IMG/VR virus record: IMGVR_UViG_3300035698_007281
Location: 29,512-93,511 of that record
Source of the DNA: a virus
Reading direction: 5' to 3' (one strand)
Length of the DNA stretch: 64,000 bases
The position numbers and the translations under genes are program-made. The notes under the pieces are model-generated. The model worked only from the letters and a program-made list of their open reading frames with translations. It did not search any database and was not told the origin of the DNA. Below, one piece after another: positions 11,971-53,880 of the stretch; position 1 is the first letter of the stretch, and the number at the start of each line of letters is the position of its first letter.

Positions 11971-12234
11971 CTAGAACTCCAAGGCCTGGAGGCCCAGTTC
12001 GTCGGCCGACATCCCGACGGTATCGAGTTGCGGCTTCCCGCCCCAGTACACGTCCGACATCTGGCCACGGCCCTGGGCCATCCGGACGATCACGTCGGTG
12101 ACCTGGACGGTGGGATCCTCGTTGAACTTCGAGGAGGACAGGTAACGGATCAAGTCGTCGTGATTCTCGCGGTTGGCTTCCAACATCTCAGTGAGGCGGA
12201 CGACCTGGGCTTCCAGTTTCTTGATGTGGTTCAT
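11971..12234 (-). CDS. Small coiled-coil-like early protein
   Basis: This 87-residue protein begins MNHIKKLEAQVVRLTEMLEAN, a heptad-like helix suggesting a coiled coil. AAAGGCCTCACC precedes ATG 12234, the same leader used at 11196. It lies about 320 bases downstream of promoter module 4, after the structured RNA at 12395-12524. Confidence 0.55.
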   Translation of the reverse strand: MNHIKKLEAQVVRLTEMLEANRENHDDLIRYLSSSKFNEDPTVQVTDVIVRMAQGRGQMSDVYWGGKPQLDTVGMSADELGLQALEF

Positions 12235-12394
12235 GGTGAGGCCTTTCCGGTTGGGGTTGGTTTCGGTTGTCATCGACGAGCGGTGATATTGTCCCGTGTC
12301 GGGTCTTGTCCGGCGGGCCGCCTGGGCGGTTCTTATCACTATCCGTTTGGACCGGCGCGACGTTGTTATCGCGTCACCTTCGCCGATGGTTTGT

Positions 12395-19878: not shown

Positions 19879-21117
19879 ATGGGAATTAAAAACTCATTCT
19901 TCTTCACGCCGGAAGAACTGTCGAAGACGGTCATCAAGAAGGCCGCCCGCCGGACCCCCACTCGTGGGTGTCAGGATTGTGGCCTGGATCGCCTGTGTCG
20001 ATCCGGTAGGATGGATCCCGCCGGTGGTGGTGACTTGGGGATCGCGGTGGTCATGGGATTCCCAGGCGATGAGGAGGGCCGTATCGACCGGCCGATGGTG
20101 GGCCGCCAGGGCGCTTTCCTCCGGAAGCATTTCCGGAAGGTGGGGATCAGCCTGGATGACGACTGCCTGAAGGTCCACGTCCTCCAGTGCCGGACCCCGA
20201 AGGACCGGCTTCCGGAGGGGGAGGAGTTGATGTGTTGCCGGTCGAGAGTGACCAAACAACTCCGTGAGTTCAAACCGGATCTGATCTTCGCCTTCGGGAC
20301 TCCTGCCATCTCCGAGATCCTGAGGGACGCCCCCTTCAGCGCCAACGCCTCCAACATGCACGGCCGGGTCGTCCCGTCCCACCTGTGGGGGTGTCCGGTG
20401 GTGTGTGGGTTTGCCCCCTCGTTTTACCTGTCCGAGAGGCAACGGGGAGAGAAGACCGGGAAGTTCGACGCCCGGATGACCGAGGCCATGAGGTTGGGCC
20501 TGACCGCCCTCGCCGGTCCTCCCCTGGTGGATACACGCCTCGACCCTGTCGGGTTCGAGATGGTCGAAGACTTGGCCGGGGTGGAGCGCCTCCTGAACCG
20601 CCTGACCGCCGAGAAGAAGCCCACGGCCTTCGACTGGGAGACAAACGGCCTCGACTCATTTCAACCTGATGCCAAACTCCTCCTGGCCTCCCTGGCCAAC
20701 GTTGAGGAGACCGCCTGGGTGATCCCCCTGGAACACCGCCAAGCGCGATGGTCCCCCGAGGATCTGGTCCAGGTTAAGGAGTACCTGAAAAACTGGTTGG
20801 CCGGGCCGACGCCGAAGATCATACAGAATTGGCAATTTGAGGAGGTGTGGTCTGTCGTCAAACTGGGGACGACCATCAAGAACGTGGTGGCCGATACGAT
20901 GGTCCGCGCCCACATCCTGGACAACCGATCTGGTGTGACCAAACAGGAGTTCATGGAGTTTGTCCGGTACGGGGAATCAGGACACAAAGGATCCGTGGAT
21001 CGGGCCGCCCTACACCACGAGTACCTCGACACGGTGGCCCGATATGGTGCGCTTGACGTGAGGTACGACCTCCGGATATATTACGATCAACTCGCCGAAC
21101 TACCTATGGAGTTTTGA
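19879..21117 (+). CDS. DNA polymerase A, N-terminal polypeptide: UDG-like plus 3'-5' exonuclease
   Basis: The first ~200 residues match an Fe-S uracil-DNA-glycosylase-like domain: CQDCGLDRLC, VVMGFPGDEEGRIDRPMVG, QCRTPKDRLPEGEELMCC. The usual GExPG reads GFPG, so glycosylase activity is doubtful. Residues ~240-412 carry the DnaQ-type exonuclease motifs FDWETNGLDSF, IQNWQFEE and YGALDVRYD. SPO1-type polymerases have a similar N-terminal layout. The stop comes where polymerase domains normally continue; they are encoded separately at 23399. A shared start-stop junction with the methyltransferase gene suggests insertion. Confidence 0.82.
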   Translation: MGIKNSFFFTPEELSKTVIKKAARRTPTRGCQDCGLDRLCRSGRMDPAGGGDLGIAVVMGFPGDEEGRIDRPMVGRQGAFLRKHFRKVGISLDDDCLKVHVLQCRTPKDRLPEGEELMCCRSRVTKQLREFKPDLIFAFGTPAISEILRDAPFSANASNMHGRVVPSHLWGCPVVCGFAPSFYLSERQRGEKTGKFDARMTEAMRLGLTALAGPPLVDTRLDPVGFEMVEDLAGVERLLNRLTAEKKPTAFDWETNGLDSFQPDAKLLLASLANVEETAWVIPLEHRQARWSPEDLVQVKEYLKNWLAGPTPKIIQNWQFEEVWSVVKLGTTIKNVVADTMVRAHILDNRSGVTKQEFMEFVRYGESGHKGSVDRAALHHEYLDTVARYGALDVRYDLRIYYDQLAELPMEF

Positions 21118-21119
21118 TA

Positions 21120-23399
21120 ATGCCTATTCTTGTTGGTGATTGCATCGAAGTCCTCGCTACCCTACCCTCCGGCCACTTCCACACCTGCATCACGTCCCCG
21201 CCCTACTGGGGCCTGCGTGACTACGGAACGGCTGAGTGGGAGGGCGGGGACGCGGAGTGCGATCACAGAAGCCCGGCGCAGGAGGCGAGTGACCGAACAG
21301 CCCTCAGAGTGATGCGGCTATGCCCCAAGTGCGGCGCTCGCAAAACCGACAAGCAACTCGGCCTCGAACCCACCCCCGCCGAGTACGTCGCCAAGATGGT
21401 CGCCGTGTTCCGCGAGGTCCGGCGCGTGCTGCGGGACGACGCAAGTCTTTGGCTTAACCTTGGCTCATCTTACGCTTCTGGTGATATACATCCCAGCCAG
21501 TCTCCCCTGCTTCGGCGTGCTTCTGCATGTGACACCGATGGCACAGCACGGCAAGGTTCTCAATGCGATTGTCTCGCCGGTCACGGTTCCGATGATGAAC
21601 ATCCAACCGGGACTCAGACCCGTCGTGACTGCAACACTCGCACCGACCAACCTTCTCCGCGAGAGCATTCAGGCCCCGCTTCGTCAAGCCGCGATTCGGC
21701 TGCGTCGAGTGAAAGCGAGCCACCTGCTCCCGCTTCTCTTGACGGCGTTCCTTCGTCCACCATGCGGCAATCTTCTTGCCAACCTTCGGACGCTTCCGAC
21801 CTCGGAGCCAAGGCTTTGGCTTCCCGGCTGTCGCCTCAGACATCTTGCGGCAACAATCCTTGGTCCGCTCATATGGGCGACTGCACGCCCGGCACGTCTT
21901 CGATGTCGCCGCCATTGGCTGTCCGCACTCAGGGCAAGGAATCTTTCTTCTCGGCATGTGGTCGCTCCGACTGTCAAGGAATAGGACGGTGTGGCTTCTG
22001 TTGGTGTAGTTTAGCAATCCCATCCCTTGCAGTCAAGCAAAAAGACTTGGTTCCGATACCGTGGCTGGTCGCCCTTGCCCTCCAGGCAGACGGCTGGTAT
22101 CTCCGCCAGGAAATCATCTGGTCGAAGCCCAACCCCATGCCGGAGTCCGTCACCGACCGCTGCACCAAGGCACACGAGAGCATCTTCCTGCTCACGAAGA
22201 AGCCAAGGTACTACTACGACCAGGACGCGATTCGGGAGCCACACCAGGACGCACATCGGGAAGCCAACCGCCCGACTCGGCGAGCCAACTTGAAAAAGGC
22301 CGTTGCTGATGGATGCCCTACATACCACACCGAAGATCACCAGCCGTCCATGGATCTCCCTATGGCCGGGCACGCCAATGGCCGCAACAAACGCTCCGTC
22401 TGGACCGTCAGCACCAGGCCGTTCAGCGGATGGTCTGAAACCTACCATCTGGCCCGTGTGGAACCGGGTGACGCTTCCGGTGGCACGAATCGCATAGAGT
22501 CTCCAGGTTGCCCAGTGCATGATCGTCAGGATCGTCAAGATGGTGGACGTTCAGGCGATCATCCGACCCACACTGGCAGCAGTGGAACTGATCCCGTTCA
22601 AGAGCAGCCTGCCGCGCCGTCGAGTGCTTCCACGCCCCGCGCGAGTTTGCATCCTCCCGATGATTCGGGTTCGCAGGCCCCTGGCAGTTCTCAGCCTGCC
22701 AAGCCCCGTAGCAATCGAACCCGCAAAACGGGCCACGCTCCTGCGACCACTTCGCCATGTACGCCTTCCGGTGAAACACCTGGCCGCACTGACGGCACGT
22801 CAGGGTCACCCGATCCCGCTGGGCCTGGTGAGAGCACGCCCGAGAGCAGAACTTGGCCGGATGAGATGGCCGCTGATTCACTGGATCAAACGCCGCACCA
22901 CACTGTTCGCAAGTCGTCATTGCCAATATCTCCTAAATGCACCTGTGTATTCTACCACAAGATAACCAAGAAAACAAGCCACTTCGCCACCTTCCCGCCC
23001 AAACTCATCGAGCCCTGCGTACTCGCCGGAACCTCCGCCAAGGGATGCTGCCCGGAATGCGGGGCGCCGTGGGAGAGAGTGGTAGAACGCAAGGCCATGG
23101 TCATCGACCGCAGCTCTCGCACGCACAGCAGGGGCCAGACCAGGAGCAGCGGAACGATGGTCGAGCCCCCGAGCAGCACCACGACCGGCTGGGAACCCGC
23201 CTGCCAGCACGACCAGCCACCCGAACCCTGCCGCGTCCTAGACCCCTTCGGCGGGGCAGGAACCACCGGCATGGTCGCCGCGCAGCACGGGAGGGACTAC
23301 ACCCTAATCGAACTCAACCCGGAGTACGCCGCCATTGCCGAGGACCGGGTTGGCAAGGCCGAGTGGTCCTATGAGAAACGAAGGAAGAGGTTTTTTTGA
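21120..23399 (+). CDS. DNA methyltransferase with two in-frame insertions over antisense HNH genes
   Basis: The 759-residue frame contains a beta-type N4/N6 methyltransferase in three blocks. Residues ~1-118 hold CITSPPYWGLRDYG (motif IV) and WLNLGSSYA. Residues ~299-437 hold KQKDLVPIPWLVALALQADGWYL and RNKRSVWTVSTRPFSG. Residues ~620-759 hold HFATFPPKLIEPCVLAG and DPFGGAGTTGMVA (motif I, SAM binding). The two segments between are Ser/Pro/Arg-rich, unlike the family, and coincide with antisense HNH genes at 21454 and 22423. The sense frame stays open throughout. GGAG precedes ATG 21120. It lies between the two polymerase halves. Confidence 0.8.
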   Translation: MPILVGDCIEVLATLPSGHFHTCITSPPYWGLRDYGTAEWEGGDAECDHRSPAQEASDRTALRVMRLCPKCGARKTDKQLGLEPTPAEYVAKMVAVFREVRRVLRDDASLWLNLGSSYASGDIHPSQSPLLRRASACDTDGTARQGSQCDCLAGHGSDDEHPTGTQTRRDCNTRTDQPSPREHSGPASSSRDSAASSESEPPAPASLDGVPSSTMRQSSCQPSDASDLGAKALASRLSPQTSCGNNPWSAHMGDCTPGTSSMSPPLAVRTQGKESFFSACGRSDCQGIGRCGFCWCSLAIPSLAVKQKDLVPIPWLVALALQADGWYLRQEIIWSKPNPMPESVTDRCTKAHESIFLLTKKPRYYYDQDAIREPHQDAHREANRPTRRANLKKAVADGCPTYHTEDHQPSMDLPMAGHANGRNKRSVWTVSTRPFSGWSETYHLARVEPGDASGGTNRIESPGCPVHDRQDRQDGGRSGDHPTHTGSSGTDPVQEQPAAPSSASTPRASLHPPDDSGSQAPGSSQPAKPRSNRTRKTGHAPATTSPCTPSGETPGRTDGTSGSPDPAGPGESTPESRTWPDEMAADSLDQTPHHTVRKSSLPISPKCTCVFYHKITKKTSHFATFPPKLIEPCVLAGTSAKGCCPECGAPWERVVERKAMVIDRSSRTHSRGQTRSSGTMVEPPSSTTTGWEPACQHDQPPEPCRVLDPFGGAGTTGMVAAQHGRDYTLIELNPEYAAIAEDRVGKAEWSYEKRRKRFF
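21454..21957 (-). CDS. HNH endonuclease, antisense inside the methyltransferase gene
   Basis: The 167-residue protein starts MPRRKIPCPECGQPM with GGAG upstream, has a zinc site at the N-terminus, and an HNH core of CECCSHDGSESRLDVHHRNRD plus ENLAVLCHRCHMQKH. It is read on the minus strand inside the methyltransferase gene and its stop codon lies in methyltransferase sequence. Free-standing HNH homing endonucleases spread by cutting uninterrupted alleles. Confidence 0.85.
   Translation of the reverse strand: MPRRKIPCPECGQPMAATSKTCRACSRPYERTKDCCRKMSEATAGKPKPWLRGRKRPKVGKKIAAWWTKERRQEKREQVARFHSTQPNRGLTKRGLNALAEKVGRCECCSHDGSESRLDVHHRNRDRRDNRIENLAVLCHRCHMQKHAEAGETGWDVYHQKRKMSQG
22423..22920 (-). 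CDS. Second HNH endonuclease, antisense inside the methyltransferase gene
   Basis: The 165-residue protein starts MTTCEQCGAAFDPVN after AGGAG, with several CxxC zinc knuckles and an HNH core (HCCQCGSDDRLNVHHLDD, then NLETLCDSCHRKRH). It resembles the HNH gene at 21454 in design but not closely in sequence. It lies exactly between the conserved methyltransferase blocks ending TRPFSG and starting HFATFP. Confidence 0.85.
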   Translation of the reverse strand: MTTCEQCGAAFDPVNQRPSHPAKFCSRACSHQAQRDRVTLTCRQCGQVFHRKAYMAKWSQERGPFCGFDCYGAWQAENCQGPANPNHREDANSRGAWKHSTARQAALERDQFHCCQCGSDDRLNVHHLDDPDDHALGNLETLCDSCHRKRHPVPHGPDGRFQTIR

Positions 23400-24763
23400 T
23401 GTCCAGTAAAGGCCTCGACATGATGGACGCGGACGCCCTCTTCCATGAGGCCATTCCGGTTTTTGCCCAGATGAAGATCCGGGGTGTCCAACTGAACCTC
23501 GGCAAACTGAACGAACTGGACGCCGACGTTCTCGATGAACTTGATGAGGTTCGCCGTGCGATGTCCGGCCCTGAGGCCAAACGGTTCCTGAAGAAGTACG
23601 GCCGGGACTTCGACTCCGGCAAGGACGCCGACAAGCGGAAACTCTTCCTCGGCCTCTTGGGGTTGAAGGCCTTCCGAACTACAAACGAGAAGGGGAACAT
23701 CGATACACCGGGCGACTGTTCAGTTGACGCTGAATCGATCCGCCATCTGATGACCCAGGTCAGTGAGAACTCGTCAACCTACCGACTCCTGGAGGCTTGC
23801 ATCGACGAGGCCCACCTGATCAAGTTGAGGGGGTACGTTAAGAACTTCCGGAAGATGGCCGACCCAAACGGTCGCCTTCATCCATCGTTTCTCCTCCATA
23901 TCGTGTCGTCCTTCAGATCCTCCAGCGCTGATCCCAACTGGCAGAACATCCCGGTGAGGAACCCGGTACTGGCCAGGATCCGCCGGACCATCGTTCCGAC
24001 CTACGACTACTTCATGGAGATGGATTTCTCCGGGGCCGAGGTGCGTGGGTATGGTGTCCACACACTTGACGCCACACTGATCGACAACATCCGAAACAAG
24101 GTTGACTTCCACCGCAAGTATGCCGGGCTTTTGTACGAGAAGCCTGAGGATGAGATCACTGGGGAGGAGCGATTTCAAGGGAAGAATCAATTCATCTTCC
24201 CGGAGTTTTATGGGTCGTACCATAAGTCCATTGCCAAGAAGAATCCCCAGTGGAGGGCGAGGGCCGTCGAGAAGGCCGAGAAGATTTTGTGGGATGACAT
24301 GCCCGACGTTAAGCGTTGGCAGGAGGACACGGCCGAGGATTACTACAAGGACGGTTACATCGACTACCTCACCGGCTTCCGGATCAAGTATGGGAAGCGC
24401 GGGTTCCTGACCTTCAACCAGATCTGTAACCTCCCCAACCAGGGGTTCGCCTTCCACCGCCTCCTTCGGATCCTGATCAATGTTGAGAATGAGATGAGAC
24501 GCCGGAACATGAAGTCCTGGATCTGTGGCCAGATCCATGACTCGGTTGTGGTTGACGTTGTCAAGGAAGAGGCCCACGATCTGATGGCGATCTTCGAGAC
24601 CCACGTCCGGAAACCGTGTTGGGGTTTCGACGATGTGGTCCCGTGGGAGGCGGAATACAAACTGGGGAAGAACTTCGTTGATTCGATAGAGGTGGAGACT
24701 GGTGTGGATCTCGATGATCTGGATCTGCGCCTCATAGAGAAGATGGGAAAGGCCCTATCATGA
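23399..24763 (+). CDS. DNA polymerase A, C-terminal polymerase polypeptide
   Basis: The 454-residue protein carries family A polymerase motifs: motif A MDFSGAEVRGYG near residue 208, a motif B region RFQGKNQFIFPEFYGSYHK, and motif C GQIHDSVVVDV near residue 377. Motif C has HDS where most family A enzymes have HDE. ATG 23399 overlaps the methyltransferase stop as TGATG, with AAGGAAGAGG upstream. It must pair with, or act apart from, the exonuclease polypeptide at 19879. Confidence 0.88.
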   Translation: MSSKGLDMMDADALFHEAIPVFAQMKIRGVQLNLGKLNELDADVLDELDEVRRAMSGPEAKRFLKKYGRDFDSGKDADKRKLFLGLLGLKAFRTTNEKGNIDTPGDCSVDAESIRHLMTQVSENSSTYRLLEACIDEAHLIKLRGYVKNFRKMADPNGRLHPSFLLHIVSSFRSSSADPNWQNIPVRNPVLARIRRTIVPTYDYFMEMDFSGAEVRGYGVHTLDATLIDNIRNKVDFHRKYAGLLYEKPEDEITGEERFQGKNQFIFPEFYGSYHKSIAKKNPQWRARAVEKAEKILWDDMPDVKRWQEDTAEDYYKDGYIDYLTGFRIKYGKRGFLTFNQICNLPNQGFAFHRLLRILINVENEMRRRNMKSWICGQIHDSVVVDVVKEEAHDLMAIFETHVRKPCWGFDDVVPWEAEYKLGKNFVDSIEVETGVDLDDLDLRLIEKMGKALS

Positions 24764-50915: not shown

Positions 50916-52097
50916 ATGGCAGTAGGACAAGCCCTCAATTGGACTGATCGTAAGTTGATCCTCCTGGCCCTTGAGGCCTCCGGCGGAAACCAGCGGGAGG
51001 CGGTACGCGCCCTCCAGGATAAGGGAACGCCATACTCGAAGGGAAGCGTGAGCAATGTCGCCACGGACTTCCACAAGTTGCGGGACACACTCCTGTCGGT
51101 GTCCGGTGTGGATCCCGAAGATCCACTGGTCCGTTCAGCGGCCGTGAAACAACTCAGGAAGCGGAAGGGCCTCCTGGTGGGTACGTTGGCCGAACGGTTA
51201 CATTGTACGGTCCCACAGACCCAGTCGGTGATCCTGAGTTTGGAGGAGGCCGGGTATCTGGTCGAGCGGACCGGTGATCGCGTGCGCATCACGAATATCG
51301 CTACATACCGGCCTGACACCTACACCGACAAGTCCCCCCTCGACGGGAACACCCGGCGGTTCGGGGTGGTGTCGGATACCCACCTGTGTTCCAAGATGGA
51401 ACGTCTTGATGTCCTGGAGAAGGCCTACGACTACTGGGCCAAGGAAGGGATCACCGAGGTGTACCACGCCGGGAACATCGTGGACGGCCAAGCGACCTTC
51501 AACATCTACGAGATCGTGGCCCACGGGGCGACGGATCAGGCCCTTTACACCGTGCAACATTACCCCATGAGGCCGGGCATCATGACCCACTTCATCATCG
51601 GGAGTTGCCACGAGGGTTGGTGGATGAGGAACTCCGGCCTCGACTTCGGGCGATACCTCATGGGTGAGATGGAGGCCGCCGGGCGGACCGACATGAACTA
51701 CCTGGGCTTTGCCGAGGTGGATGTTGAGTTGACCAGCAAGGCGGGCAAGAGCGCGAAGATGAGACTCTTCCATCCGGGCGGGGGCACGGCCTACGCCCTC
51801 TCATATGCGACCCAGAAGATCGTCGGATCTCTCCAGGGTGGCGATAAGCCGGACATCATGTTCGTCGGCCACTACCACAAGTCGATCTACCACATGGTCC
51901 GGAATGTCCACTGTATCCAAGCTGGGTGTGTGCAGGATCAGACCCGGTTCATGCGGAACAGGAAACTGGAGGCCCACGTCGGGTACTGGACGGTGGAGGT
52001 TGAGCAAGACTCCAACGGCGCGGTCCGCCGGGTATGCCCCGAGTTCACGGCGTTCTATGACCGGTCCTATCACGTTGGCTACACTCACCAGGGATGA
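50916..52097 (+). CDS. Winged-helix plus metallophosphoesterase-like protein
   Basis: The 393-residue protein has an N-terminal DNA-binding-like region (residues ~1-130: homeodomain-like helices, then a LVGTLAERLHCTVPQTQSVI winged helix). A phosphoesterase core follows: GVVSDTHLCSK, HAGNIVDG, GSCHEGWW, FVGHYHKSIY. Two usual metal residues differ (GD to GN, GNH to GSCH), so catalysis may be altered. AGGAG lies eight bases before ATG 50916. Confidence 0.7.
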   Translation: MAVGQALNWTDRKLILLALEASGGNQREAVRALQDKGTPYSKGSVSNVATDFHKLRDTLLSVSGVDPEDPLVRSAAVKQLRKRKGLLVGTLAERLHCTVPQTQSVILSLEEAGYLVERTGDRVRITNIATYRPDTYTDKSPLDGNTRRFGVVSDTHLCSKMERLDVLEKAYDYWAKEGITEVYHAGNIVDGQATFNIYEIVAHGATDQALYTVQHYPMRPGIMTHFIIGSCHEGWWMRNSGLDFGRYLMGEMEAAGRTDMNYLGFAEVDVELTSKAGKSAKMRLFHPGGGTAYALSYATQKIVGSLQGGDKPDIMFVGHYHKSIYHMVRNVHCIQAGCVQDQTRFMRNRKLEAHVGYWTVEVEQDSNGAVRRVCPEFTAFYDRSYHVGYTHQG

Positions 52098-52705
52098 CCA
52101 TGACACCTGAGGAAGAGTTCAAGGAGTTGAAACCCCTGATGGATCGGGCGGTGGCCTTGCGATACCCTAGGTTGATATGGAGTCGGGAGGCAAGCAAGGA
52201 GGATTGCCTCCAGTTCGTCCAGATCAGTATGTGGGAACTCTGGGACCGTTATGATCCCGAGAAGGCCTCTCGGAAGCGGTGGGTGGCCTTCAAGGCATCG
52301 AAGTTGGTCATCGACTATCACCGGAAGGTCCACGGCCGTCTGGGTGGGAAGCGGAAGGCCAAGGAGGTCCCGTCGCTGATGGCGAGTGAGGTTTTTTTCG
52401 TTGATCAAACGACCGGACCCCAGGTCGAGGTGGATCGGAAGTTGGACACCACACTGTGGGTCCAGCGGGTGATGACAGAACTCCGGGCGATCCTTCCCAA
52501 GAAGTTCCTCAGCGTGGTCGTCCTGTACTACCTCGATGGGTTGACCATGAAACAGATCGGGGAGCGGGAGTCCCGGACCGAGTCGGCCATCTATCACAGG
52601 TTCACCACGAGGATCTGGCCAGCGATGAAGGACATCCGTGAGAGGTTCCGGGTGGAGTACCCCGACGCGGAATTCGATATTTCTTGCCTTCTATGTGGGG
52701 AGTGA
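52094..52705 (+). CDS. Sigma-like transcription factor (sigma70-family regions 2 and 4)
   Basis: The 203-residue protein has a region 2-like stretch (SREASKEDCLQFVQISMWELWDRYDPEK ... FKASKLVIDYHRK) and a C-terminal region 4 helix-turn-helix (LPKKFLSVVVLYYLDGLTMKQIGERE). Size and layout fit a small ECF-type or phage sigma. It lies just before the structured RNA region. It is the obvious candidate to read the class B promoters. Confidence 0.7.
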   Translation: MTMTPEEEFKELKPLMDRAVALRYPRLIWSREASKEDCLQFVQISMWELWDRYDPEKASRKRWVAFKASKLVIDYHRKVHGRLGGKRKAKEVPSLMASEVFFVDQTTGPQVEVDRKLDTTLWVQRVMTELRAILPKKFLSVVVLYYLDGLTMKQIGERESRTESAIYHRFTTRIWPAMKDIRERFRVEYPDAEFDISCLLCGE

Positions 52706-52806
52706 TCGATACAATAGGTTCACGGAGTTTGTGTCAGAAGACGACAAACATGAAGGAGAACTGATATGAAGCGTTAACCGATGGACCCCATGTGTAAGCG
52801 AAGTTT

Positions 52807-52836
52807 CCCTGGGGGTGGCCGACACCACCCCCAGGG
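52807..52836 (+). other. 12-bp perfect hairpin before the tmRNA-like element
   Basis: CCCTGGGGGTGG pairs perfectly with CCACCCCCAGGG across a six-base loop. No T-run follows, so it is more likely an RNA-processing or protective stem than a terminator. Confidence 0.5.
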
Positions 52837-52851
52837 TATGAGTTGCAAGCC

Positions 52852-52987
52852 GGGGACGTGATGGTATCGACGGCACGGCCAGCAAGATCTCGGAGGTGGT
52901 ACTCCGACCTGGACAAACGCTCAAGTGAACACCAGGGAGATCCCGAGTGACAGTGACCGGACAAGAGTTCGACTCTCTTCGTCTCCA
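52852..52987 (+). ncRNA. Miniature tmRNA-like RNA
   Basis: The 5' end GGGGACGTGATGGTATCGACG matches the tmRNA start (GGGG...GG..TCGACG). The 3' end GGAC-AAGAG-TTCGACT-CTCTT-CGTCTCC matches the tmRNA T-arm and acceptor strand. GGGGACG pairs with CGTCTCC over 7 bp, including one G-U. GATCTC and GAGATC in the middle could form helix P2. At 136 nt it is far shorter than typical tmRNAs (about 350-400 nt). There is no room for the usual pseudoknots, no clear LAA-type tag, and CCA is not encoded. Confidence 0.55.
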
Positions 52988-53070
52988 GTTGGACCGGGTA
53001 CTCTGCCAAGAGTCCAAAGCGAAACTAGGGTGGCCCCTGAAACTTCGCACCAAACCCCGGACCATCAACT
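52987..53070 (+). ncRNA. Structured RNA element (three-way junction)
   Basis: AGTTG and CCGGG near 52987-52998 pair with CCCGG and CAACT near 53056-53070. Inside are hairpins ACTCT-gcca-AGAGT and GCGAA...TTCGC (with AGGG/CCCT within). It has no canonical T-loop and is not a standard tRNA. Function is unknown. Confidence 0.4.
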
Positions 53071-53087
53071 GCTAGGAGCATGTTTGA

Positions 53088-53218
53088 TCGGGAGTGGCGG
53101 AATCGGCAGACGCGCCGGGATATAAACCGGTGGACACAATCTAATCGGCCCCCTAACCTGCGCGCGGGTCGGGCCTGAGAGATTCTTGTCCTTGCAGGAT
53201 CATACCCTGCCTCCCGAG
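53088..53218 (+). tRNA. tRNA-Leu-like RNA with a giant variable arm
   Basis: Acceptor TCGGGAG pairs with CTCCCGA (7 bp). TG, then the D-arm GCG-GAATCGGCAGA-CGC, is Leu-like. The T-arm is GCAGG-ATCATAC-CCTGC with an atypical T-loop. The anticodon stem GCCGG/CCGGT holds an 8-base loop (GATATAAA), so the anticodon is unclear (ATA or TAA). The variable arm spans ~65 bases and can stack four helices (GGACA/TGTCC, AATCT/AGATT, GGCCC/GGGCC, ACCTG/CGGGT). Total ~130 nt against ~85 for normal class II tRNAs. Confidence 0.5.
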
Positions 53219-53351
53219 TGGGCAAGCGCCCAAGAAGTGAGTCCACGAATGGCAGACCCCGGACTCAGGGGGCATCGGATACCATGACGCTTTCCGGTGC
53301 TGCAACCGAAAAACCGTGACTGTCTGACGGCCGGGAACAGACCGGCAATAT

Positions 53352-53425
53352 CGCGGGATAGTTCAGTGGCCTAGAACGCCGGACTCATAATCCGGAAGTC
53401 GTGGGTTCGACTCCCACTCCCGCAA
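53352..53425 (+). tRNA. tRNA-Met (anticodon CAT)
   Basis: A regular cloverleaf: D-arm GTTC...GAAC, anticodon stem CCGGA/TCCGG with loop CTCATAA (CAT), T-arm GTGGG-TTCGACT-CCCAC. The acceptor GCGGGA/TCCCGC has a C-A mismatch at the first pair. A CAT anticodon could also be an Ile tRNA after lysidine modification. Confidence 0.85.
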
Positions 53426-53479
53426 ATGTCGTAAGGCCTACGACTCCGTCGGAGACAAAGGACATGGTTCCGAGATCCG

Positions 53480-53492
53480 GTGGGTGGGGTTT
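53480..53492 (+). repeat. 13-bp inverted repeat, left arm (partner 53726-53738)
   Basis: GTGGGTGGGGTTT here is the exact complement of 53726-53738. The two arms enclose the tRNA-like element and tRNA-Glu and could form a long-range stem in the precursor RNA. Confidence 0.6.
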
Positions 53493-53530
53493 GATCACCT
53501 TGCCACATCGGCTTGACCGGCGGCGGGCCA

Positions 53531-53606
53531 CAGTGCGTATCTCAAAAAACCCCACAGGGTAGAGACCGGCAAGCCGGAGATCCTGGTTCGAGTCCAGGCG
53601 CGCGTG
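53531..53606 (+). ncRNA. tRNA-like RNA lacking an anticodon loop
   Basis: It has a canonical T-arm (CCTGG-TTCGAGT-CCAGG), TA before the D-arm TCTC...GAGA, and a partial acceptor (GTGCG against CGCGC). The D-loop is swollen by a CCCC/GGG insert. The anticodon arm is reduced to CCGG-caag-CCGG, with no seven-base loop. An outer stem GGCCACA/TGTGGCC (53526-53532, 53609-53615) encloses it. It could be a decayed tRNA or a tRNA mimic. Confidence 0.5.
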
Positions 53607-53621
53607 GGTGTGGCCCATTAA

Positions 53622-53695
53622 GCGGCGGTCGTCTAGTGGCCAAGGACTCCGGTTTTTCATACCGGACAACGTGGGTTCGACTCCCACCCGCCGTA
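53622..53695 (+). tRNA. tRNA-Glu (anticodon TTC)
   Basis: Acceptor GCGGCGG/CCGCCGT, D-arm GTC...GAC, anticodon stem CCGGT/ACCGG with loop TTTTCAT (TTC), T-arm GTGGG-TTCGACT-CCCAC, discriminator A. CCA is not encoded. Confidence 0.9.
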
Positions 53696-53845
53696 CTCGT
53701 TGGGAGGAGATCGAGGTCCAACCAGAAACCCCACCCACACCGAGTAATCGCGGCGGTGTGCCTCCGGTCATAACAGAGCCGGGTGGCCAACAGTGGGAGT
53801 CCTGACACAGAGCGGCCTTAGTGATCTCCACCTGACCCCAACGAA

Positions 53846-53880
53846 AAGAGGCCCCGGAATGGTTCCGGGGCCTCTTCTTT
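53846..53880. terminator. Bidirectional terminator between converging blocks
   Basis: A perfect 14-bp stem (53846-53859 with 53863-53876, three-base loop) is followed by CTTTATT on the plus strand and by TTTTCG on the minus strand. It closes both the RNA region and the leftward block starting at 53919. Confidence 0.85.

Follow-up and report, generated by a model that had tools for sequence, protein, structure and literature searches.

Of the 93.5 kb of IMG/VR virus contig IMGVR_UViG_3300035698_007281, the stretch of DNA analysed here (the window) covers 64 kb and carries a 1.1-kb cluster of structured RNAs, among them a short transfer-messenger RNA (tmRNA). The contig is that of a tailed phage, with a terminase, a portal, a minor head protein, a protease and a major head protein identified in profile searches. 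The cluster sits amid the structural genes, bounded by a sigma-like gene that ends at 52705 and by a terminator at 53846-53876, and holds tRNA-Met, tRNA-Glu and three tRNA-like RNAs; all features given below are on the plus strand. A preliminary description of this DNA had noted the unusual density of structured RNAs and regarded a lack of structural conservation elsewhere as one half of the outcome that would speak against it. Two of the cluster RNAs, the short tmRNA and a tRNA-like RNA without an anticodon, fall in classes with relatives, which contradicts such a lack.

The mini-tmRNA spans 136 nt (52852-52987) and consists of a complete tRNA-like domain (TLD), with neither an mRNA-like domain nor pseudoknots. 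The tmRNA-like character proposed earlier is borne out by Rfam, where RF00023 matches 52852-52990 at 47.7 bits (gathering threshold 47, E 8.8e-16) in an alignment that covers both ends of the model and skips about 300 middle positions. Likewise, a model (R1) built solely from other short phage tmRNAs finds 52852-52987 at 48.5 bits (E 8e-13), and the runner-up in a search of 100 sources scores 29 bits. The acceptor is of the alanine type: its 5' strand GGGGACG (52852-52858) pairs with CGTCTCC (52980-52986), includes the G3-U70 alanine signal, and is followed by A73 at 52987, while CCA is not encoded. The D-loop GG..TCGAC, the GGAC before the T arm and the T arm itself match the tmRNA consensus, and a P2 helix is present. 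In place of the mRNA-like domain, P2 and an insert occupy 52871-52959, that is, 89 nt from the C of TCGAC through the first G of GGAC, inclusive, which fold as P2 plus a three-way junction. Hence no tag reading frame with a stop is found in the window RNA. Pseudoknots are likewise absent, since the 89 nt leave no room for them and are accounted for by nested helices. The 5' acceptor half comes before the 3' half, so that the gene is not permuted, and an unpermuted TLD without a reading frame in a phage corresponds to the TLD-only type known from phage DS6A. Taken as a whole, the RNA has a fold of ordinary stability (z 0.18), and the case for the mini-tmRNA therefore rests on homology and comparison rather than on energy. 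A perfect 12-bp hairpin (52807-52836) lies 15 nt upstream; it has no T run, and the fold of 52772-52850 has a z of -3.75.

Relatives were sought with patterns of conserved bases. The first pattern, tmRNA-domain bases with a short gap, gave one relative (L004), and looser patterns run next on IMG/VR gave 41 stretches and then at least 120. Matches were kept if their T and acceptor stems pair, regardless of any pairing in P2. The RNAs kept are short (75-82 nt), medium (100-137 nt) or full-length tmRNAs (330-410 nt); most of the full-length ones come from a scan of bacterial genomes. Among the matches listed, the class counts at least 55 non-redundant short and at least 13 medium RNAs in phage contigs. 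Pairs 1-6 of P2 form in 48-55 of these 55 short RNAs, against about 23 in shuffles, and all four Watson-Crick types occur, which provides the covariation that the preliminary description had named as a check. As P2 pairing played no part in selection, it is strong evidence of a selected structured RNA, and acceptor pairing, being part of the selection, is not counted as evidence. A 3-bp hairpin within P2 is found in 52 of 61 short RNAs (15.7 expected), and G3-U70 is present in all 68 RNAs counted (55/55 short and 13/13 medium). An alanine codon followed by a stop occurs in 2 of 61 short loops, and stops in the medium inserts are scattered or absent; a tag reading frame or an Ala-Ala-stop within the insert was thus rejected as not conserved among relatives. 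The sequences give strong evidence that the short phage tmRNAs form a diverse class with a P2 structure under selection.

Every relative tested is recognised by Rfam (55.7-72.6 bits). ARAGORN misses nearly all of the mini-tmRNAs (75 of 78) and overlaps the other three as longer calls. A tRNA lies within 2 kb of 16 of the 78. No SmpB is encoded in the 30 carrier contigs searched, where controls were positive, and no mini-tmRNA was found in 396 Actinomycetota and 398 proteobacterial genomes (794 scanned). Pattern matches in 12 Actinomycetota genomes were full-length tmRNAs with a chance TCGAC and, by inspection, an unpaired P2. The one mini-tmRNA among the genome-scan matches listed, L213, is of the medium form and lies in a contig of a Bacteroidota metagenome-assembled genome. 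An isolate, Stenotrophomonas virus Jojan60, carries an unannotated 80-nt mini-tmRNA (61.8 bits) near tRNA genes. One candidate, L052, is a doubtful member, as the class motif is missing from its loop and ARAGORN predicts a longer gene at that place.

Several other phage tmRNAs were observed alongside the class. In L004 the mini-tmRNA (12145-12281) adjoins 32 tRNA genes in 15 kb of phage contig. L036, L069, L073, L075 and L158 contain more RNAs like the mini-tmRNA, 85-100 nt long and with different inserts in P2. Gordonia phage GMA2 (KR063281; L285:1122-1530) has a seemingly complete, unannotated standard tmRNA of 409 nt by a tRNA array, and Ruegeria phage RpAliso (OR257569; L286:1500-1640) has an apparently unannotated permuted one, with the T-arm half ahead of the GGGG..TTCGA half. 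In the crAss-like phage cr50_1, the annotated 496-nt tmRNA (L287:1443-1938) starts at about the 3' end of a tmRNA domain (match 1501-1532); a misplaced annotation or a permuted gene could account for this.

The three-way junction (52886-52942), which the preliminary description had listed as a separate element, lies in the mini-tmRNA insert. It comprises a closing stem (52886-52891/52937-52942), hairpin A (52892-52905, loop GTGGTA) and hairpin B (52908-52936, 19-nt loop). Five RNAs (those of the window, L004, L016, L007 and L018; L016 is a 355-kb phage contig) each fold alone to the same architecture at the same offset, with a closing stem and with loops of 5-6 nt in hairpin A and 19-20 nt in hairpin B. 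This architecture arises in 0.1-0.6% of shuffled inserts (null 0.001-0.006 each); the independent cases number four because L007 and L018 are near relatives. The large hairpin B loops are alike in L004 (TAACTGCCTTAGCAAGACC), L016 (AAAACTGCCCTTGCAAAACA) and the window (ACAAACGCTCAAGTGAACA). Across the loops of L004, L016, L007 and the window (52913-52931), all of 19-20 nt, the sequence runs roughly AAC-GCC-..-GCAA-AC. A scan anchored on GTGGTA returned L004, L016 and one chance match (L288), and nothing else. The junction is not needed for the mini-tmRNA class as a whole, since the 75-82-nt RNAs do without it.

The anticodon-less tRNA-like RNA (53525-53617) has also held up. Its fold (53524-53616; z -2.41, 3/200 shuffles) is a cloverleaf in which the acceptor GTGCG/CGCGC is extended by GGGCCAC/GTGGCCC and is accompanied by a D stem TCTC/GAGA, a stunted arm CCGG-CAAG-CCGG and a canonical T arm CCTGG-TTCGAGT-CCAGG. 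It shares acceptor, D and T arms with ordinary phage tRNAs and differs from them in the anticodon arm, which is a mini-hairpin with the 4-nt loop CAAG in place of a 7-nt anticodon loop; decoding is therefore impossible. ARAGORN makes no call here, and RF00005 gives no match at 29 bits or above. A viral scan for tRNAs without an anticodon arm used the pattern GGTAGAG-N16-21-GGTTCGANTCC, in which the spacing leaves no room for that arm, and found at least 119 stretches. Among the matches listed, 85 are unique and have a paired T stem, and in 21 of these an acceptor paired 7/7 lies at the normal spacing; shuffles give 0.6 (maximum 4). The 21 perfect acceptor stems all differ from each other, which by their sequence indicates selection for structure in this second class. 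These RNAs measure 61-67 nt; of the 29 listed, ARAGORN overlooks 28, and a scan of 150 proteobacterial genomes turned up none.

The window RNA shows the class pattern (GGTAGAG, 16-21 nt, GGTTCGANTCC and a paired T stem) and lacks the 7-bp acceptor at normal spacing, having instead a 5-bp acceptor with a 7-bp extension and an enlarged D loop. It is thus a divergent relative of the class, as the stunted arm is common to both, while the acceptor and D loop are modified. Hairpins in the stunted arms across the class are barely above chance (15 vs 11.3), and therefore the arm itself may not need a stem. The open-access literature searched held nothing relevant on phage tRNA-like RNAs without an anticodon, though reports elsewhere may be missed. 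As judged from the sequence, the anticodon-less neighbour is a second, parallel kind of non-decoding tRNA mimic.

The remainder of the cluster is of mixed standing. Directly upstream is the sigma-70-region-2-like gene (52094-52705), whose assignment is upheld by Pfam Sigma70_r2 (PF04542, 25.2 bits against a cut-off of 24) and by the sigma factor profile phrog_1740 (E 2.8e-8). The two normal tRNAs, tRNA-Met (CAT, 53352-53425) and tRNA-Glu (TTC, 53622-53695), are called by both ARAGORN and Rfam. The former has the C1-A72 mismatch typical of an initiator and two of the three anticodon-stem G-C pairs, and is possibly a phage initiator-like tRNA. For the giant-arm RNA (53088-53217) a tRNA-like origin stands, since its 5' 40 nt resemble phage tRNA-Leu, and a tRNA-like structure finds no such footing, as it folds about as well as shuffled sequences do (z -0.82) and no supporting relative was found. 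It has an 8-nt anticodon loop, a giant variable arm, an aberrant T loop ATCATAC and a G at the discriminator position, is missed by ARAGORN and Rfam, and may be decaying. The 13-bp long-range inverted repeat (53480-53492/53726-53738) is exact, as described earlier, and just mildly unusual (P ~0.01 in shuffles). It encloses the anticodon-less RNA and tRNA-Glu and could hold them together in a precursor; there are two competing folds, because one of its arms can pair with 53547-53555 too. The unassigned small hairpins are not supported: with 3 hairpins of at least 7 bp against 1.2 expected (P 0.13), their number is at chance level, and the TGAGTCC/GGACTCA (53238-53267) and TGGGC/GCCCA hairpins are hence evidence of nothing. 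A branched hairpin domain (53697-53845; fold z -2.26, 4/200 shuffles) lies at the 3' end of the presumed transcript, no relatives of it were found, and an intrinsic terminator with a 14-bp stem (53846-53876) closes the cluster.

Searches through neighbouring genes added little. The sigma-like gene and the downstream genes yielded no relatives, a phosphoesterase gene led to one contig without the RNA cluster, and in a BLAST of the whole region against phages all 20 places listed cover tRNA-Met only. Elsewhere in the window (19879-24763), DNA polymerase is seemingly split in two genes, which match parts 554-829 and 836-1241 of the phrog_17 profile; a gene for a DNA methyltransferase separates them, and the reading frames overlap by 4 nt.

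Among known systems, the closest is Mycobacterium phage DS6A, which carries a TLD-only tmRNA (PMC4131195, PMC11915505). Both RNAs are phage-borne and hold little beyond the TLD; compared with DS6A by description rather than by alignment, the window RNA differs in its 136 nt and the conserved three-way junction on P2. With standard bacterial tmRNA (RF00023) it shares the G3-U70 and A73 acceptor, the D-loop GG..TCGAC, P2 starting from that C, GGAC and the T arm, whereas the standard molecule has about 340-400 nt and the mRNA-like domain, tag frame and pseudoknots that the window RNA is without. Mitochondrial and plastid tmRNAs without a coding sequence (CDS) likewise have no tag reading frame; the mitochondrial ones mostly come from permuted genes and work with an organelle-targeted SmpB, whereas the phage ones are unpermuted and the tested carriers have no SmpB. 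Two-piece phage tmRNAs such as that of Melnitz (PMC9004378) are phage-encoded too, but they are permuted and keep the mRNA-like domain, and neither is true of the window RNA. An ARAGORN survey of 18,146 phage genomes reported one- and two-piece tmRNAs (PMC9004378), and a database of 2025 lists nine unpermuted CDS-less tmRNAs among 97,179, with 79 phage sequences in all (PMC11915505).

It has about an even chance of being right that 52852-52987 is a phage mini-tmRNA acting as a decoy for SmpB and stalled ribosomes. The tmRNA is cut to its TLD and P2, with the three-way junction in place of the tag reading frame and pseudoknots. Host tRNA-processing enzymes would mature it, the host would add CCA, alanyl-tRNA synthetase (AlaRS) would charge it via G3-U70, and host SmpB and EF-Tu would bind it. 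It would then compete for SmpB with host tmRNA, or it would enter stalled ribosomes; as it offers no message to resume on, it would lower host trans-translation during infection. The model for this is a DS6A-like molecule that strongly inhibits E. coli tmRNA whether or not it can be charged, perhaps via SmpB titration (PMC4131195, PMC11915505). Several points weigh against a decoy. Charging and inhibition by the window RNA are inferred, the latter by analogy, and its Rfam score barely exceeds the threshold. A conserved junction with a 19-20-nt loop would be unnecessary if SmpB titration were the sole task, and for mitochondrial tmRNAs that lack a reading frame, the role proposed is to aid rescue, not to block it (PMC11915505). 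The main rival is indeed a working minimal rescue RNA, in which a stalled ribosome would admit the alanyl-TLD together with host SmpB, the nascent chain would pass to the alanyl-TLD, and the complex would be resolved without a tag by drop-off, a hydrolase or another rescue factor, so that the phage gains extra rescue capacity. All features for chargeability and SmpB binding are retained under selection, CDS-less mitochondrial tmRNAs persist alongside SmpB, and a part in dealing with incomplete mRNAs has been proposed for them (PMC11915505). An RF-1-type hydrolase domain (G018:27616-27801) is encoded in one carrier, the 115-kb contig L072/G018, which has a mini-tmRNA and also a tRNA array. Yet this domain is found in only 1 of 27 carrier contigs, and the published experiment with a similar RNA gave inhibition (PMC4131195), which leaves a rescue role rather unlikely.

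The junction, conserved in five RNAs, would find a use if it and its 19-20-nt loop bound a specific partner, or if the RNA competed for a factor other than SmpB, such as AlaRS, EF-Tu or a host RNA-targeting defence with an SmpB-like domain; CoCoNuT defence systems have SmpB-like domains predicted to bind tmRNA (PMC11090510). Such a role appears quite improbable given the 75-82-nt class without a junction. It is more improbable still that the RNAs are remnants, now decaying, of tmRNA or tRNA genes captured from hosts, or attachment sites left by integration at ssrA. Phages such as Milly and Validus do carry tmRNA 3' ends beside integrase genes, the Alone3 copy looks partly degenerate, and the giant-arm RNA of the window has an aberrant T loop. 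However, P2 covariation in 55 diverse sequences and the 21 distinct perfect acceptors show selection for structure, and the RNAs keep the 5' half of the domain in register, which an attachment site would not do. An attachment-site origin thus holds for Milly and Validus and not for the mini-tmRNA class, and decay is largely refuted for both classes and may apply to the giant-arm RNA.

Where one phage TLD-only tmRNA was known before, phage contigs now add dozens of divergent ones and an isolate adds another. Mini-tmRNAs hence turn out to be widespread in phages and, by analogy, are probably decoys that jam host ribosome rescue. A broader proposal can be put forward only tentatively, and seems somewhat less probable than its opposite: phages would widely encode two non-decoding mimics, both found in the window, in which message-less mini-tmRNAs shut down host rescue and anticodon-arm-less tRNAs form an undescribed class with a target of its own. 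The set of mini-tmRNAs makes it testable whether phages routinely attack host ribosome rescue by an RNA decoy, and why.
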